Shown piece after piece: positions 39,339 to 49,108 of a DNA stretch of 64,000 nucleotides. Position 1 is the stretch's first letter, and every line of letters begins with the position of its first letter. The stretch is taken from assembly GCA_022649665.1 (NCBI GenBank), contig JALCOL010000009.1:1-64000 (forward strand). The letters are read 5' to 3'. The notes under the pieces are model-generated. The model did not search any database. It saw only the letters and a list, made by a program, of their open reading frames with translations, and was not told the DNA's origin. The stretch is from Enterococcaceae bacterium. Its GTDB lineage: Bacteria > Bacillota > Bacilli > Lactobacillales > Enterococcaceae. The position numbers and the translations under genes are program-made.

Positions 39339-41834
39339 ATGCGGACCGGAGGACAAAAAATCATTCACTGGATCAAAGCCCGGCAGATTTGGCTGAAGCT
39401 GATCTTCATGGCTTCGATCTTATTCTTTGTCGTCAATCAAGTGACGAGGATCCTGCACGGTATTTCGTGGAAAGAGATCACGGCGGCTGCCAGCCGGCAA
39501 GGCGCACCGACGATCGCGGTGATGATCGTGATCGGACTTTTGGCCGTTGGGCCGATGCTGCTGACTGATCACGGTGTGAATCGGATGCTGGACGAAGAGG
39601 GGCGTGCACCGCTGCCGATGCGTCAGCGGCTTGTTGCAGCTTGGATCGTCAATACGATCAATAATCTGGCTGGCTTCGGCGGAGTCGTCGGAATCAGTTT
39701 GCGCGAGCATTTTTACCGCGGGACGCATGCAAAAGGCAAAACACTGGCACTTTTATCAAAAGTGGCGCTTTTCATGTTCAGCGGCTTATCGATTCTCGCA
39801 TTTTTCGCGCTTCTGCTGAGCCTTTTCTCAAAGTACGGCCAAGTTGCTAAAGGCTATATTTTTTGGCTGCTTGTAGCGAGTGTTCTCGGACCAGTACTTT
39901 TGCTGTTCGTCTATTTGAAGCGCAAGACGCTTTTTCAAAATTTTCTGCCGCGCAATATCTTTTATTTTTTTGGCGGATCTCTTGGCCAGTGGAGCGGTGC
40001 TGCTGCAGCTTTTTTGAGTATCGGCTATCTGATGGGCGAAGGCGGGAAGCTGCTGTATATTTTTCCGTTGTTCATCGCGGTCACGGTGCTCGGGATGCTT
40101 TCGATGGTCCCAGGCGGGATGGGAACTTTTGATGTTCTGATGATCATGGGACTCAGCACGCTTTCGATCGGGCGGGAAGTCGCGGTCGTTTGGATTTTGT
40201 ACTACCGGCTCTTTTATTATCTGCTGCCGTTTGCGAGCGGGATCATTTTGCTGTTTACCCAAACCGGCTATCGTGTCAATCGCCTGCTGGAAGGACTGCC
40301 GAAAATCTATTTGCAAAAGGTCGCACACGGGATCCTGACGGCGGCGCTTTATTTCGCCGGCCTGATGATGGTGCTGCTTTCGACCGTTACCAATCTCTCG
40401 GTCCTCAACCGCTTGTTTGAGTGGCTTTTGCCGTACTCTTTTCATTTTTTGGATCAAACACTTAATCTATTGTTCGGGCTCCTGCTTTTGGGACTGGCCC
40501 GCGGGATCTATGCAAAAGTCCGCCGCGCCTATTTGCCGACGCTTGCTGTGCTGACTTTTTGCTTGGCGAATACGATCGTCCAAACAACGAATCGGCACTT
40601 GATCATCTACTTTTTGATCGTGATCGCGGCGGTTTACGGCAGCCGCAAAGAATTTTACCGGGAACGTCTTGTCTACTCGTGGGGCGGAATCGCTGCCGAC
40701 GGGCTTTTGTTCGGATTTTTATTGGTTTTATATGCGGTCGCCGGCTTTTTTACAACAACGGACAGCTATAACGAATTTATCGTGCGGAACTTTATTTTGT
40801 TTCCATCTGATCAGCAGTGGTTCGCGGGTCTTCTAGGGATCGCAGCGGCTGTCTTGATTTTGTTTTCGCTGTTTTATTATTTGTCAAAAGGCGGCGAAGA
40901 GATCGGACACAGCGTTCACGAATCGAAAATGAGGCAGGAGCTGGGGTCTTTTCTGCCGCAGACGGTGCTGGAGCAGCTGCCGAACGCGACGCGGGTCTTC
41001 CGATATGCGGAAGGGACTGCCAAAGTTTATCTGCTGTTCCGCCGCAAAACAGAAAAACTGTTCCTCATCGGAGATCCACTGGGCGAAGCGGGTTTGTTTC
41101 AAAAAGCGATCTTCCAATTGATGAAGCTTGCCGATGATCAAAACTTGAATTTGGTGTTTACCAAAGTATCGCCGGCGGGGGCTTTGCTGCTGCATGATTT
41201 GGGCTTTCAAAATTTAAAGCTGGGGGAAGCCGCAGTGATCTCGCAAAATAGCTTGATGAAAAAACAGCAGCAGCTGCTGGAGAAATTCACGGCAGAGGCG
41301 ATGGTCTTGTTCTATTACCCGTATGCTGCAGATAATCACCGGCTGATCAGCGAATTATCAGCGATTTCCAGCGACTTGACGTCGTTTGAAGACTCTTCTG
41401 CGTTATTAGTGCGAAAGCGCTCAGGCGAGCTTTCAGCTGCGACTATCTGGGGACGCGAACAATTTTCCCAAGACCGCTTTACTTGGGTCAGCGAAACAGC
41501 ACCGGAACTGCAAAAAATGCAGCAGGAGCTGAAAGATTATCAATTGATCCTTGAAGCGCAGCGGCAGAATGTCCGTTTTGGTTTTATACCGGGCAGCCGT
41601 GTCGGCGAAACACGTTTTTCTTTTTTTACCGAACGGTTGGTCAATGCGATCTACCGCTACAACGTCTTTCATCTCAATTTGAAAGAAGAAAAGCAGTCGC
41701 TGAGTGATGTTGCTGAATCTTGGGAACCGGTCTACTTCGCCTACCGGAAAAATTGCAGTCTGCTGTTTGCGCTCTTGCAGCTGAAAAGCTTGTTCCGCCG
41801 CGAGAAGCGGGACAATTTCCGCTGGTACCGTTAG
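39339..41834 (+). CDS. mprF: phosphatidylglycerol lysyltransferase/flippase MprF
   Basis: MprF transfers lysine (or another amino acid) from tRNA to phosphatidylglycerol and flips the product outward, lowering surface charge and giving resistance to cationic peptides. The 831-residue product has a long hydrophobic N-terminal part (about 1-520, many membrane helices) and a C-terminal cytosolic GNAT-like synthase domain (about 530-820). AAAGGGG precedes the ATG. A weak promoter (TGGAAA/TACCAT, 17 bp) lies near 39280-39305. It probably acts on the phosphatidylglycerol made by PgsA. Confidence 0.94.
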
Positions 41835-41896: not shown

Positions 41897-42487
41897 ATGT
41901 ATGAATACATCCAGGGGGAAGTGACCTTTGTTTCTCCCAAACATATCGTTTTAGAAACAAACGGCATCGGCTATCAGATCCAAGTCGGCCAGCCCTTTCA
42001 ATATCGCGAGGCGCAAACGGCGCTCGTCTATGTCTATTTAGTTGTCCGCGAAGATACACAAGTGCTTTACGGATTTCGCGATCTGGCGGAAAAACAGCTT
42101 TTTCTGCGATTGTTGAGCGTGACTGGGATCGGACCGAAAAGTGCGCTTGCGATCATCGCCGCGCAGGACCCGACTGGGCTCGTTCGAGCGATCGAACAAA
42201 ACGATGTCAAATATTTGACGCGTTTCCCCGGCGTCGGCAAAAAAACGGCGCAGCAAATGATTTTAGACTTGCAAGGGAAACTGATCGCTGCGGCTGAAAA
42301 GTCTGATACTGCAGCGCCGGAAACGGCCGGTACGCAGCAAGCACTCGGCGAGGCGCTCGAAGCATTAAAAGCATTAGGATATTCAGCTAGAGAAGTCGAG
42401 CAAGTCGCGCGGCAGCTCGAAAAACACCCGGAACTGCAGACTACTGATGAATTTTTGCGGGTCGGGCTGAAAGTTTTGCTGAAGTAA
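41897..42487 (+). CDS. ruvA: Holliday junction branch migration protein RuvA
   Basis: RuvA binds four-way junctions and loads RuvB. The 196-residue product starts [20 protein letters not shown], has helix-hairpin-helix motifs ([16 protein letters not shown] and [16 protein letters not shown]) and a C-terminal RuvB-binding domain. The ATG at 41897 is chosen because it matches the family start; the frame is open further upstream into mprF but has no binding site there. GATAGGAGA lies upstream. Confidence 0.96.
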
Positions 42488-42497
42488 GGAGGTATTT

Positions 42498-43508
42498 ATG
42501 ACGACAGATCATCTTTTGAACGGACAGGCGGAAGAAGAAGAGGAAAATCTCGAAATGACACTGCGCCCGACGCGGCTGGAACAATATATCGGTCAGGACA
42601 AAGTCAAAGAAGAATTGAAGATCTATATCCAAGCAGCCCGCCAGCGGCAGGAAGCGCTCGACCATGTGCTTTTGTACGGACCGCCGGGGCTTGGAAAAAC
42701 GACCCTCGCCATGATCATTGCCAATGAACTTGCCGTCCAAATACATACGACCAGCGGCCCGGCGATCGAAAAGCCGGGCGACTTGGTGATGCTTTTGAAT
42801 GAGCTGGCCCCGGGAGATGTGCTTTTTATCGATGAGATCCATCGTCTGCCGCGGGTCGCTGAAGAACTGCTCTATTCAGCAATGGAAGATTTTTATATCG
42901 ACATCATGGTCGGTTCCGGAGCAGAAGCGCATCCGGTCCATTTTACTTTGCCGCCGTTCACGCTGATCGGGGCGACGACACGCGCCGGGATGCTTTCAGC
43001 GCCGATGCGCGATCGTTTTGGGATCATTGCACGGATGCAGTATTATGAAACCGCCGACTTGGAAAAGATCATCACGCGTTCAGCGGCGCTTTTCGACTGC
43101 CGGATCGCTTCAAGCGGCGCTGTCGAGATCGCCCGCCGTTCACGCGGAACGCCGCGGATCGCCAACCGTCTCTTGAAACGGGTCCGCGACTTTGCGGAAG
43201 TGATCGCAGACGGCGTGATCACGCTGCCGATCGCCTCAAAGGCGCTCGAGATCCTGCAAGTCGATCAAGCCGGTCTTGATATCACCGATCAAAAGCTGCT
43301 GCGGACTTTGATCGAATTGTATCACGGCGGTCCGGTCGGGTTGAATACGCTGGCGGCCAACATCGCTGAAGAGCGCGAGACTGTCGAAGACATGTATGAA
43401 CCGTATCTTCTGCAGATCGGCTTCTTGAAAAGAACCCCGCGCGGCCGGATGGCAACTTCCAAAGCGTATACCCACTTCGGCTATCCTTTTTTGGAAACGG
43501 AGGAGTGA
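42498..43508 (+). CDS. ruvB: Holliday junction helicase RuvB
   Basis: RuvB is the hexameric AAA+ motor of branch migration. The 336-residue product has Walker A GPPGLGKT at 61-68, Walker B DEIHRL, sensor GATTRAG and the arginine-rich C-terminal winged helix (RTPRGRMAT). AAGGAGG precedes the ATG, 10 bp after ruvA. Its stop overlaps the region of the next gene's ribosome binding site. Confidence 0.97.
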
Positions 43509-43510
43509 CA

Positions 43511-44065
43511 TTGGGAACATTCTCTTCGACCGATCAAGAGTTGGCGCAAGCATTGATCGATCTTTGCCAAACACATTCTTATCAAAAAATCAGTATTCAA
43601 GCGCTCACAAAAAAAGTTGGCTTGAACCGCCAGACTTTTTACTATCATTTTGATGATAAAGAAGAACTGTTGAAGTGGATCTATTTGCGGGATCTTGAGT
43701 ATCTGGGGCCGGAAATGACGCTGGCTAATTGGGAAGAGCAGGTCCTTCTTCTTTTGAAAGCGATCCGCCAAAAAGGCGTCTTTTACCAAAAAACAACACT
43801 GGGTGCGGCGGATGTTTTTTCGCAGCTTTTCAGCAAACAGATCCAGCAGCGCTTTATCGATTTGTTTGCTCATTTGGATGAAGAACGTCAATTGAGCGCG
43901 CAAGACAAAGATTTTTATTCGGCTTTTTTTGCATTCGGCTGCGCTGGGGTATTGTTGAAGTGGATCCGCGGCGATTATCAAGAGATGCCGCTTGAGATCG
44001 CCGCTCAGCTTTTTCGCTTGGCAAAAGATGTTGAATGGTTCGGCTCACGCTTGTACGACGAATGA
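43511..44065 (+). CDS. TetR-type transcriptional regulator
   Basis: The 184-residue protein has an N-terminal TetR helix-turn-helix (ISIQALTKKVGLNRQTFYYHF at about residues 27-47; the key part is VGLNRQTFYYHF) and a helical ligand-binding C-terminal half resembling the DhaS-like subgroup. The start is TTG at 43511, a few bases after GGAGGAG; GTG at 43505 overlaps that site. It follows ruvB with no gap and precedes the oleate-hydratase-like gene by 17 bp, so it is the obvious candidate to sense a lipid or related ligand and control that gene. The ligand and targets are unknown. Confidence 0.82.
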   Translation: MGTFSSTDQELAQALIDLCQTHSYQKISIQALTKKVGLNRQTFYYHFDDKEELLKWIYLRDLEYLGPEMTLANWEEQVLLLLKAIRQKGVFYQKTTLGAADVFSQLFSKQIQQRFIDLFAHLDEERQLSAQDKDFYSAFFAFGCAGVLLKWIRGDYQEMPLEIAAQLFRLAKDVEWFGSRLYDE

Positions 44066-44082
44066 GGAAAGAGGGATGAATG

Positions 44083-45753
44083 ATGAAAAAAATCTGGCCG
44101 CTTGCCACAGCTGCAGCCGCTCTTTGCGGCGGCGCGCTGCTTGTTAAAAAGCACCAGCGGAAAAACCGTATGAATGCCGAGACGAAAAAAGAAGAATTGC
44201 TGCTGAATCGTGATTATGGAGACCAGCAGATCTTTTTGATCGGCGAAGATCTTTATCAGTATGCCGCGGCAGTCTATTTGATCCGCGATGGGCATTTCCC
44301 CGGCGAGAACATCCACTTCTTCCCGATGCGGCCGCCGCAAGAAAAAATGACAGCTGCGGGCGGCTGTGAAGCCTCAAACGGCTGGCGGCTGCATGAAATT
44401 TATGGACCGCTTTTTTATGATCTATTTGAAAGTATTCCGTCGCTCCGCTGGTCAGGGCACTCTGTCGCAGAAGAAATTGCGAATTTCCAGCGCTTCCATC
44501 CGATCTATGCGCAAAGCCGGCTGATCGATAAAAATGAACGGATCATCGATGGGCATCTGTGGGAGCTGAAGACTGAAGAGCGCCTGAAGCTCTTCAAGCT
44601 TTTGCAAGTGCCGAACGAACAGCTGGTCGGATTGACGCTTGAAGACTGGTTCAATCCGCACTTTTTCGAAACAACATTTTGGAATTTATGGCAATCGACG
44701 TTTTTGCTGAAGCCTTGGAGCGCGCTTTCCACTCTCAAAGAACAATTGGTGCAATATGAGACGAAGCCGGCCAGCTTGATCACGATGGCCGGAATGTCCG
44801 CGCCGCCGCTTGATCCGGCAGAAAGCCTGCTCCAGCCGCTGAAGCACTTTTTAACGATGCGGCAAGTCCATTTTCACGATACCGGGATCAAAGATTGGCA
44901 GCTTTCATCCGCTGGCGACCGTATCTGCGGCTTGCGGAGTGAAACCGGCGAGCTGATCCCAGTTGGCGAGCAGGATGCGGTCCTCTTCAGGAATGCCGAC
45001 TCGAGTGCCGGTGCGCAAGCCGGTACGCGCAATACGCCGCCTGATCCAGTTGCGGCCGCCGACAGCGAGCTTCACTTGTGGCAGCTTTTGGCAGAAAAGA
45101 CTGACGGTGCCGGGACACCTGCCCGCTTTTTCCGCGATGCGACCGAAACCGGCGGCCTCTTTTTCACTTTCACTTGCAAAGAAGGCGAATTGCTGAAACG
45201 TCTAGTTGATTCTGCCGGCAATGTACCTGGCTCGGGCGGGCTTTCAACCCTTGTTGACTCGAGCTGGCTGATCACAACGTGTCTGCCGGCGCAGCCGCTC
45301 TATGAAGAGCAAACAGCGGGGACCTTTGTTCTGTATGGCTACGGCCAATCACCGATGCGGATCGGCGATTACTGCCGCAAACCAATGCTGGCAGCAAGCG
45401 GCGAAGAGCTGTTCGAAGAGTGGATCAGCCAGCTCGGCTGGGAAGCTGAGCTGGAAGTTTTCCGCAAAGAGCTGATCGATGCCGTCCCGGTATTCCTGCC
45501 TTACCAGACCTCCGCTTTTATCCCCGCTTCGACCGGAAGCTTGCCGGTCTATTATGATTCGGCGATCACCAATCTTGCATTCGTTTCGATTTTCGCGGAA
45601 AGTGCGCCGGGAAAAACAGCTTACAGTACGGAAGAACGGCTCCGTGTGCTGCGGGAGATAGTCGAGTATGTTCTTGCGTTGCCGGGCGAGGTGCCGCAAA
45701 GCGAATCGCGCCTTTCACGCGCAAAGCACGTATTGCGGCTCTTAGTTCACTAA
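44083..45753 (+). CDS. membrane-anchored, motif-degenerate oleate hydratase family protein
   Basis: The 556-residue product aligns by eye along most of its length to oleate hydratases (MCRA family), FAD enzymes that add water to the double bond of oleic acid. Matching segments include AAAVYLIRDGH (61-71), the LF-SIPS stretch (about 114-120) and the SSWLI...QP region near 400. The FAD-binding GSGLAS of active enzymes is replaced by GEDLYQ (54-59), the catalytic GGREME region by NGWRLH (99-104), and the C-terminal GNFAE by SIFAE. Residues 4-21 form a hydrophobic helix followed by KKHQRKNR, a likely membrane anchor. The frame is intact, so it is probably a functional pseudoenzyme or an enzyme of changed activity. 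The ATG at 44083 is 7 nt after GAGGG. Confidence 0.78.
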   Translation: MKKIWPLATAAAALCGGALLVKKHQRKNRMNAETKKEELLLNRDYGDQQIFLIGEDLYQYAAAVYLIRDGHFPGENIHFFPMRPPQEKMTAAGGCEASNGWRLHEIYGPLFYDLFESIPSLRWSGHSVAEEIANFQRFHPIYAQSRLIDKNERIIDGHLWELKTEERLKLFKLLQVPNEQLVGLTLEDWFNPHFFETTFWNLWQSTFLLKPWSALSTLKEQLVQYETKPASLITMAGMSAPPLDPAESLLQPLKHFLTMRQVHFHDTGIKDWQLSSAGDRICGLRSETGELIPVGEQDAVLFRNADSSAGAQAGTRNTPPDPVAAADSELHLWQLLAEKTDGAGTPARFFRDATETGGLFFTFTCKEGELLKRLVDSAGNVPGSGGLSTLVDSSWLITTCLPAQPLYEEQTAGTFVLYGYGQSPMRIGDYCRKPMLAASGEELFEEWISQLGWEAELEVFRKELIDAVPVFLPYQTSAFIPASTGSLPVYYDSAITNLAFVSIFAESAPGKTAYSTEERLRVLREIVEYVLALPGEVPQSESRLSRAKHVLRLLVH

Positions 45754-45759
45754 AAGGTC

Positions 45760-45830
45760 CAGGAGGTTTGCGGCAAAAGTGTTCGGCTTCGTTTTGAAGC
45801 TCGGCACTTTTGCCGCGACCTCCTCTTCTA
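45760..45830 (+). repeat. dispersed palindromic element, copy 3
   Basis: GAGGTTTGCGGCAAAAGTG and CACTTTTGCCGCGACCTC form a long stem capped by a CTTCGTTTTGAAG hairpin. The T tract after it is short, so termination would be modest. The core GAGGTT-TGCGRCAAAAG is shared with the left end of the 39104-39278 copy. Confidence 0.65.
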
Positions 45831-45940: not shown

Positions 45941-46720
45941 GTGGAGAATATCTATGTACATATCGATTCGACCAGCAATGCGGTCACATCGCGCGGCATC
46001 ACCCATACGGATTTCAGCGATAATATCGTTCATTATCCGCATAATCTGCTCTTGCTCGATCCTCATGACCCGAACGGACAATATGAAAAGCGGACCGGCT
46101 TGAAAGTCATTGAGGGCAAAGAAGCGGTCGAGCTTTATTTCAATGAATTGCGGCGCAAGCGGAGCGGCCGGGAAACAAAGTGGCTTGATTTCACTGATCC
46201 GGGAATGCTGGCGGAATTGACGCCGCTCGAGCTTTCCGAGATCCTTTATTTGGGGCATACGAAAACGCAGCTGCACTCGCCGTTTTTCTATAAACTGCAG
46301 AACAACTTTGTCTATTTTGAAAATGCACGGACATTCATGCGGATCTACTATCGGTATTTGGATGAGTTTTACCGCATCATGGCGATCAAAGTCGCACAGA
46401 TCGTTGAGGACAAGCTGAACGAACGCAAGTCCTTTTTCCGCCGGCCGCGCAAGGTCGCGCCAATCGATAACCGCATCCTGCGGGAAATGGAGATCGTATT
46501 GACAGAGGGCGCCGTGTTGGCGTTTCGCGAATATGAAGAAAAAGACCGCCAAGCGGTGATCCCGCTGTATATCGTCGAGGATCGCTGGTGGAAATCGATG
46601 CAAAGCTATCAAAAACCGCCAAAAGTTGGTGAGTTGGCATATAATTACGCCAGTCAGACTTGGTATTTTGCTCTTGATGAAAACGGGATGGAGCAGTGGA
46701 GTGCACCGATCGAGCAATAA
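45941..46720 (+). CDS. protein of unknown function (259 residues)
   Basis: I do not recognise this protein. It is soluble-looking, with no signal peptide or membrane helix, and is rich in Tyr, Arg and Glu. The N-terminal part (about 1-90) looks beta-rich with many His and Asp; the middle (about 110-190) is helical and aromatic (RTFMRIYYRYLDEFYRIMAI); a basic patch SFFRRPRK follows near 170. The GTG start is well supported by AAAAGGAGG (45928-45934). It is a single-gene unit with an operator-like dyad in front and a bidirectional terminator behind. Confidence 0.75.
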   Translation: MENIYVHIDSTSNAVTSRGITHTDFSDNIVHYPHNLLLLDPHDPNGQYEKRTGLKVIEGKEAVELYFNELRRKRSGRETKWLDFTDPGMLAELTPLELSEILYLGHTKTQLHSPFFYKLQNNFVYFENARTFMRIYYRYLDEFYRIMAIKVAQIVEDKLNERKSFFRRPRKVAPIDNRILREMEIVLTEGAVLAFREYEEKDRQAVIPLYIVEDRWWKSMQSYQKPPKVGELAYNYASQTWYFALDENGMEQWSAPIEQ

Positions 46721-47707: not shown

Positions 47708-47779
47708 AATTACTTTCCTAATCGCAAACGAACCAGTATGCTTAAAAGGCAGGCTTTAATTCCAGAAAGGAGAAAAGTG

Positions 47780-49108
47780 ATGGAGATCCGGCGATTGTCT
47801 TTTGCTGATCACAAACGATTTGCAGCTTTTTTACCGCGCAGCTTTGCGCCGCTGCCGTTTCACAAGAGCCGCAGTGTCCAAAAGCGCGGGATGCTCCAAG
47901 CTTTTTACTTGGGCGAAGTGTGGGGCGCTTATACCGGCAGGCATTTGTGCGGGGCTTTCCATTTTTCGCGCTCGCTTTTAGACGGTGAATGGCGCGGTCT
48001 GCTGTGGGAGCAAGGCTCGCGAAATGCTTGGGACAAGCTTTTTCTCTTCGCGGTGCGTTCGCTCTTTTTACCGGCGGTCGTTTTGCCGGAAGCCGTTGCC
48101 GAATATTTGAAGATCGCCGGAACGCAGCCGGCTGCCGCAAAGAAGCGCCGGCTGCCGCTCGCTTACCGGACAGGGCTTGTTTTAGGCGGCGGCGGAGTGC
48201 ACGGGGCGTATCAGATCGGGGTCTGCCAAGCGCTGGCGGAACTCAGGATCTCCTTTTCTCTCGCTGCCGGAACGTCTGTCGGCGCATTGAACGGTCTGCT
48301 GCTGAGCCGGCTGGACGCTAACCAGATGGAAGCGGTTTGGCTCGCTTTTTGTCTTGAAGCAGGCAAACTTGCTGAAATGCCGCTTGAACGAACGATCGCT
48401 TCTTATCTTTCGAAAGCTCCGCGTGCAGGCGGCCGCTTTCCGCTTTATTTCAACGCAGTCCGGCTGCCGAAATTCAAGGAAGAGACGTTTGTCTTGGATG
48501 AACTTGCACCGCCCGAACAGCGGCAGGCGCTTTTAGGGTCAGCGGCATTCGCGCCGTTTATGAAAGCTGTTAAAACCCCGAACGGGCGGCTGGTCGACGG
48601 CGGATATCGCGACAATCTGCCGGTCGGCTTAGCAGTCGCAGGCGGCGCGCGCGAGCTGATCGTCATCGACGTTCAAGGATCCGGGCACACGAAAAAGTCG
48701 GCGCTTGCTGTGATGAAAAAGTATCCGCATCTTTATTTGCGCTCGCCGTGGCCGCTCGGCGCGATGCTGCGGCTGGATGTTTCCGTGATCAAAAATAATA
48801 TCAGACTGGGCTATTTAGAAACAATGAAAGCTTTAGGCTTTTTTTATGGAAAATGGTACACTTTTGAGAAGAAGGATTTTTTCAAAGAATGCGCGGCACT
48901 CGCACAAGCTTTTTGCACGGCGCATCCGCAGTATGCGTTTGAAAGCGTTTGGCCGCGCTGGCCGCGGTTTTTAGAAGCCGCCGCAAAAGCAGCCCGGATC
49001 GCTCCCGGCAAAGTCTATACACTGCAGCAATTAACGGATCAGCTCCAGCAGGCAGACCCGAAAATATATGATCAAAAAAGCAGAGATTTTTTTGGCGGAA
49101 GGCGCTGA
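47780..49108 (+). CDS. patatin-like phospholipase with an extra N-terminal domain
   Basis: This is a predicted Ser-Asp lipid acyl hydrolase of 442 residues. The oxyanion loop GGGGVHG is at 136-142, the nucleophile Ser166 lies in GTSVG, and the Asp of the dyad is D273 in DGG. The first 130 residues form a separate N-terminal region (FHKSRSVQKRGMLQAFYLGE) that I cannot assign. No signal peptide is visible, so it should act in the cytoplasm or at the inner face of the membrane. GAAAGGAG precedes the ATG at 47780; a longer frame from 47738 lacks a binding site. Confidence 0.87.
   Translation: MEIRRLSFADHKRFAAFLPRSFAPLPFHKSRSVQKRGMLQAFYLGEVWGAYTGRHLCGAFHFSRSLLDGEWRGLLWEQGSRNAWDKLFLFAVRSLFLPAVVLPEAVAEYLKIAGTQPAAAKKRRLPLAYRTGLVLGGGGVHGAYQIGVCQALAELRISFSLAAGTSVGALNGLLLSRLDANQMEAVWLAFCLEAGKLAEMPLERTIASYLSKAPRAGGRFPLYFNAVRLPKFKEETFVLDELAPPEQRQALLGSAAFAPFMKAVKTPNGRLVDGGYRDNLPVGLAVAGGARELIVIDVQGSGHTKKSALAVMKKYPHLYLRSPWPLGAMLRLDVSVIKNNIRLGYLETMKALGFFYGKWYTFEKKDFFKECAALAQAFCTAHPQYAFESVWPRWPRFLEAAAKAARIAPGKVYTLQQLTDQLQQADPKIYDQKSRDFFGGRR

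Follow-up and report, generated by a model that had tools for sequence, protein, structure and literature searches.

A divergent, N-terminally anchored oleate hydratase homologue lacking the FAD-binding and active-site motifs of its family in an Enterococcaceae bacterium

Oleate hydratases inactivate antimicrobial unsaturated fatty acids, as described for S. aureus (PMC7948970). The S. aureus enzyme OhyA, a clade I member (HFam 11), requires FAD for its activity, has the active-site loop RGGREM and carries a C-terminal membrane-binding domain; it is nevertheless reported to bind oleate without FAD (PMC7948970). The R. erythropolis enzyme (PDB 5odo, HFam 3) has the GxG, GGRML and RRYM motifs and is reported to work without the catalytic Glu (PMC8403116). 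According to the same source, the Tyr at position 241 of the Em enzyme is conserved in all members of a family database, and the Glu is replaced by Met in about 30% of them. An N-terminal helix has been described for some clade II oleate hydratases, the Listeria type (Neff et al. 2024, PMC11669549). No oleate hydratase pseudoenzyme is described in the literature searched, which leaves most subscription journals outside it.

Here we analyse a gene in a window of 64,000 nucleotides (the whole stretch of DNA studied) whose product resembles the Listeria type in its anchor, its length, its compatible fold and its tetR partner, and appears orthologous to it by gene order and tree group. It differs from that type in lacking the P-loop, lid, active-site loop and Tyr, and no operator was found in the gap between tetR and the gene. 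The R. erythropolis enzyme, its best structural match, likewise lacks the catalytic Glu (PMC8403116) but retains the GxG, GGRML and RRYM motifs, and S. aureus OhyA shares the fold (Z about 40).

The gene, its family and its descent

44083..45753, + strand: divergent, anchored homologue of clade II oleate hydratase (MCRA), from frame, profile and alignment

The ohyA-like ORF is a real gene. Its frame is intact over 556 codons plus the stop, as a sequence-only reading had stated, with an alternative start at an ATG one codon upstream (44080); G+C by codon position is coding-like (0.60, 0.43, 0.61), and no ORF on the opposite strand within it exceeds 116 codons. Similarity to oleate hydratase over most of the length, claimed in the same reading, was borne out by a full-length match to Pfam PF06100 (MCRA) well above the curated cut-off (341.4 bits against 23; residues 48-521, profile positions 2-488 of 495) and by matches to solved oleate hydratases at E 1e-54 to 1e-46, PDB 4uir at E 1.4e-54. 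The NCBIfam equivalog NF010584 is missed (306.1 bits against a curated cut-off of 567), a cut-off that is possibly strict for clade II; the motif-intact paralogue described below has no score on it. Its profile match places the window protein in the MCRA family, and its descent places it in the anchored clade II lineage; by the sequence features compared below it does not qualify as an oleate hydratase (EC 4.2.1.53).

44092..44142, + strand: N-terminal hydrophobic segment (residues 4-20) followed by basic residues, an inherited anchor, from comparison of N-termini
41897..42487, + strand: ruvA, a synteny marker
42498..43508, + strand: ruvB, a synteny marker
43505..44065, + strand: TetR-family regulator, partner gene of the anchored ohyA, from profile and synteny

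The hydrophobic segment had been read as a new helix at residues 4-21 followed by basic residues. It is present, at residues 4-20, as expected of the anchored clade II lineage, but it is not new: a hydrophobic segment and basic residues stand at the start of all 25 close orthologues and of 68 of the 79 scorable named homologues (from the best 80 of 375; one, L148, whose start is misplaced, was left unscored), and we reject a newly gained anchor on these counts. The anchor is inherited, because the gene is the positional orthologue of a known N-terminally anchored clade II type.

This orthology draws on gene order and on the tree. A tetR gene lies directly upstream of ohyA in 10 of 10 anchored loci examined, and ruvA-ruvB-tetR-ohyA is the order in all three Enterococcus-type loci examined; the window has the same tetR neighbour and the same order, with no ORF between ruvB and tetR where the Enterococcus-type loci have one or two. 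The reading frame of tetR overlaps the stop codon of ruvB, and 14 nt separate its end from the first ATG of the ohyA-like ORF; the TetR stretch LNRQTFYYHF is identical in all 11 aligned TetR proteins. The tree joins the window protein to anchored proteins in a supported 14-row group (98/95) and gives it a branch length of 6.15 where the median is 0.21; the tree program flags the placement of so long a row as unsure. We take the gene for the vertically inherited counterpart, in the same position, of the N-terminally anchored clade II oleate hydratase that is linked to tetR.

Its nearest relatives are proteins of 36-38% identity in one genus of the same family. The named homologues (best 80 of 375) include those of Enterococcus caccae, termitis and rivorum and, further out, of Listeria, Vagococcus, Lysinibacillus and Clostridia. 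Nothing nearer than the 38% orthologues was found in searches of the order (395 genomes) or the class (398 genomes), a scan of genome contigs with the window protein returned 39 stretches and no close relative, and viral contigs returned nothing; the source genus is represented by one genome. On another contig of the same genome lies a second MCRA gene (564 aa, 536 bits; G000:C2), which encodes a clade II oleate hydratase with intact motifs and without the N-terminal extension. The window gene is not a recent duplicate of this paralogue, since the two proteins share 30% identity and fall in different tree groups.

Lost motifs and predicted fold

44242..44259, + strand: degenerate FAD P-loop GEDLYQ (residues 54-59; GGGIAT in relatives), from alignment
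44335..44373, + strand: region in which the FAD lid GGSNDG is lost (about residues 85-97), from alignment and model
44374..44391, + strand: degenerate active-site loop SNGWRL (residues 98-103; RGGRML in relatives), from alignment
44734..44748, + strand: LKEQL (residues 218-222; LRRYM in relatives), with Gln221 in place of Tyr, from alignment and PMC8403116

The altered motifs had first been described against clade I sequences (GSGLAS, GGREM, GNFAE), whereas the proper reference is clade II (GGGIAT, RGGRML, SQFVE). The letters themselves stood in each case. GEDLYQ at residues 54-59, reported as a change from GSGLAS, replaces GGGIAT in the relatives, so that the P-loop GxG reads GED at residues 54-56; the lid GGSNDG, found in all 80 named homologues (best 80 of 375), is absent, and both parts of the FAD-binding signature are missing. 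NGWRLH at residues 99-104 is likewise present, within a loop that reads SNGWRL where RGGR(E/M)(M/L) is expected, although the comparison with GGREME overstates the change at the Glu because aligned clade II relatives already have Met at that position. SIFAE (residues 502-506), listed as a change from GNFAE, departs from the clade II form SQFVE at just two sites. The original list was also incomplete, as it lacked the loss of the lid, where five conserved columns are gapped, and the change of LRRYM to LKEQL. The latter places Gln221 at the Tyr of Em Y241 and Sa Y201, which is invariant across 50 aligned homologues (50 of the 80 named loci, best 80 of 375). In S. aureus numbering, Arg78, Arg81 and Tyr201 correspond to Ser, Trp and Gln. 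Alignment rows at Sa 505-508 are probably one position off and were excluded from use.

Losses at the P-loop, lid, active-site loop and Tyr occur together only in the window protein among the homologues compared. GGRML is found in 77 of the 80 named homologues (best 80 of 375), the other three having GIRMF, GGRMF and GGCML; two of these altered cores, in a Clostridium MAG (L135, GIRMF) and a Lachnoclostridium MAG (L156, GGCML), occur with an intact lid, and GGRMF is the loop of L139. As for close homologues that might share the changed motifs, no second species with the same changes was found among the family genomes, the 395 genomes of the order, the 398 of the class or the contig scans, and the state is seen in one species. 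Orthologues with intact motifs and no anchor had been named as evidence that would count against the original proposal; the orthologues do have intact motifs, yet the anchor is present there too.

Structure prediction and overlay on solved oleate hydratases, proposed as a check by the earlier reading, gave a compatible fold. The AlphaFold2 model of the window protein has pLDDT 81 and pTM 0.83, against pLDDT 86.6 and pTM 0.88 for the E. caccae orthologue, predicted likewise. The best PDB match of the window model is 5odo_B, with Z 41.5 and an rmsd of 2.1 for 496 aligned residues; entries that differ by less than 1 in Z count as tied. The 15 listed oleate hydratase entries have Z 35.9-41.5, and the next family Z 21.8. 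The old lid and loop (residues 85-100) have pLDDT under 50 and are among the least confident parts of the model. Because the input alignment held motif-intact enzymes besides the window protein, the model speaks to fold compatibility only, and not to the presence of a FAD pocket.

Conserved columns were also compared between the two lobes, whose limits we drew from the known topology. With columns chosen for conservation among 25 close relatives, 40 of 114 in the FAD lobe and 90 of 181 in the fatty-acid lobe are retained by the window protein (p 0.016); with those conserved in 89 anchored-clade sequences (79 of them from the best 80 of 375), it keeps 36 of 90 and 71 of 136 (p 0.078). In seven control homologues, retention of the FAD lobe is similar or better. 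The losses thus seem to lean to the FAD lobe, with a p value that depends on the column set. Overall, the alignments, the model and the family survey support the original claim that FAD-binding and catalytic motifs have been lost from an intact, fold-compatible, anchored protein.

Divergence, selection and regulation

The window protein is 31-37% identical to 50 homologues (drawn from the 80 named loci, best 80 of 375), whose own identity to the E. caccae protein is 61-94%. Near-invariant positions of the family were defined by at least 95% conservation in 52 clade I and clade II homologues, after 17 of 70 rows, near-duplicate or partial, had been dropped; of the resulting 86 columns the window protein retains 48, while the lowest value among the 52 homologues is 86%. 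Across 103 family genomes, the 101 other full-length MCRA copies score 530-757 bits and the window copy 342. Its neighbours have not diverged to this extent: identity to E. caccae is 74% for RuvB (67-68% in Listeria) and 53% for TetR (55% in Listeria), as against 37% for OhyA (73% in Listeria). Judged from these identities, the speed-up is specific to the ohyA-like gene among the genes compared.

Such divergence might reflect decay, and the sequence-only reading had named relaxed selection as a result that would count against it. Of 230 columns conserved in the anchored clade (89 comparison sequences, namely 79 named homologues of 500 aa or more from the best 80 of 375 and 10 others), the window protein keeps 107 and has lost 123, with 118 changed and five deleted. 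Neutral simulations that started from the E. caccae gene and ended at the observed fraction of changed conserved sites (substitutions only, without indels, with stops counted and undone) met 22-30 stop mutations on average, and 9 in the lowest single run; the real gene has none. Changed hydrophobic sites are still hydrophobic in 33 of 50 cases (0.66, against 0.51 expected, sd about 0.075), and the replacements average -0.43 on BLOSUM62 where -0.75 is expected (sd 0.14), which may be taken as a modest sign of constraint. The window gene was fixed as sister of Enterococcus in a codon model that gave its branch a separate omega and separate codon frequencies; the optimum for omega fell at the limit of the range searched, and values of 0.1, 0.2, 0.3 and 1 cost 2.5, 6.6, 11.6 and 45.5 units of lnL (background omega 0.03). 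This points to an omega of about 0.1-0.2 at most for the window branch, to be read as a long-term average because synonymous sites are saturated. Simple decay fits poorly, because the frame is whole where simulations meet many stops and omega = 1 is rejected by 45 lnL units. The lack of stops and the low average omega lend indirect support to the view that the gene has been kept because it is useful.

Broken MCRA copies do occur in the family. One genome (G095) has a split copy (243, 124 and 124 bits), one copy in G009 is split (570 and 158 bits), and remnants lie in G055 and G065. The G073 copy has an internal TGA and is 98% identical to its orthologue over 385 residues, and the G093 copy is full-length with one TAA; single stops of this kind may be sequencing errors because the genomes are drafts. 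A fragment in G060 is uninformative on decay, as it lies at a contig end. In these few broken copies the frame appears to have broken before the sequence changed; in the window gene the frame is whole and the motifs are gone. Together with the simulations and the codon model, this survey leads us to reject a long-standing neutral relic.

45761..45824, + strand: strong hairpin beginning 7 nt after the stop codon, a possible operon end, from folding

Regulation of the gene also seems to have changed. The stretch from tetR to ohyA contains an inverted repeat of 20 bases, GACA-N12-TGTC, in 18 of the 23 named loci (from the best 80 of 375) that have tetR at most 138 nt upstream; the five without it are those of E. 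larvae, Enterococcus sp. BWR-S5, two Paenibacillus and one Erysipelotrichaceae. We propose that it may be the operator bound by the TetR regulator encoded next to clade II oleate hydratase (loci L054-L063 and named loci such as L084-L102); it is our own observation, made with no published criterion, and the expression was picked after viewing loci that partly overlap those counted. A literature search aimed at other matters brought up no description of the repeat. No such repeat occurs at 42400-44100 in the window, where the gap between tetR and the ORF is 14 nt. A fuller form of the repeat is found in just two places genome-wide, each with two mismatches, against 16 for a backward control, and we reject on this count the idea that TetR acts elsewhere through the same operator. 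A consensus scan found no promoter-like site between tetR and the ORF, though its yield is near chance (5; shuffles 3.0, sd 2.1). Downstream, the hairpin at 45761-45824 is long and nearly perfect (-46.3 kcal/mol, z -8.2); no clear T run follows it, and a consensus terminator scan did not return it. We infer that the ohyA-like gene is co-transcribed with ruvAB-tetR.

The strongest rival to a useful function is that the gene became redundant with the motif-intact paralogue and that selection was relaxed only recently, the frame surviving so far. The presence of that paralogue in the same genome is consistent with this, as are the split copies and remnants elsewhere in the family, the operator not found near the gene and the restriction of the state to one species. 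We consider recent relaxation unlikely all the same: more than half of the anchored-clade columns are lost without a single stop, the long-term omega is low, and the broken family copies (G009, G095, G073) still read like normal ones.

Candidate functions

The best reading, to which we give about an even chance, is that the window protein is a pseudoenzyme without catalytic activity that is tethered to the membrane and binds fatty acids. Because parts needed for cofactor binding and the active site are lost although the gene is whole, it may serve a purpose different from the usual reaction. Alignment and model indicate that the protein still has its anchor, a compatible fold and much of the fatty-acid lobe. 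The protein would hold no FAD and carry out no hydration, and would be tethered to the membrane facing the cytoplasm, as predicted by the positive-inside rule; less certainly, it may bind or sequester unsaturated fatty acids entering the membrane at its inner face. Any hydration would fall to the motif-intact clade II paralogue encoded elsewhere in the genome, and the gene, once controlled through a TetR operator, is now probably transcribed together with ruvAB-tetR. The fuller proposal, that selection has kept an FAD-free anchored protein that buffers or presents exogenous unsaturated fatty acids without hydrating them, we hold tentatively, at somewhat less than even.

Fatty-acid binding is suggested because S. 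aureus OhyA is reported to bind oleate without FAD (PMC7948970) and because the fatty-acid lobe is somewhat better kept. The conserved residues of that lobe are themselves half lost, and the gatekeeper Arg81 (S. aureus numbering), a carboxylate contact, is Trp in the window protein; with both loop arginines gone, the contacts to the carboxylate are unlikely to be unchanged. If the pseudoenzyme reading is true, a natural orthologue that is FAD-free and catalytically dead would allow the binding of fatty acids to be viewed apart from the chemistry, and could reveal whether binding by itself benefits a cell.

Alternatively, the protein might still catalyse a reaction on a lipid, but one of a different chemistry, either without FAD or with an altered cofactor mode. 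Strong divergence within a compatible fold would fit this, Trp101, Arg102 and His104 in the old active-site loop could make a new site, and the R. erythropolis enzyme is a reported case of oleate hydratase activity without the catalytic Glu (PMC8403116). With a single sequence, however, a new conserved motif would be unrecognisable, and the loop falls in the low-confidence region of the model, so that we regard a new chemistry as improbable. Least probable of all is a non-catalytic dock or regulator that brings the motif-intact paralogue to the membrane: that paralogue lacks an N-terminal extension and solved oleate hydratases are dimeric but for one (PMC7948970), but the monomeric exception, the R. 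erythropolis enzyme, shares the paralogue's loop Met (PMC8403116) and the two genes lie on different contigs.

Beyond the hairpin, a 259-codon ORF (45941-46720, + strand) has nothing above Pfam cut-offs and nothing in NCBIfam. About 2 kb downstream of the ohyA-like gene lies a gene for a patatin-like phospholipase (47738-49108, + strand; Pfam Patatin, 82.8 bits), and upstream lies one for an MprF-like protein (39339-41834, + strand; LPG_synthase_C, 48 bits, with the TM domain below cut-off), which together give the ohyA-like gene a lipid-related neighbourhood.
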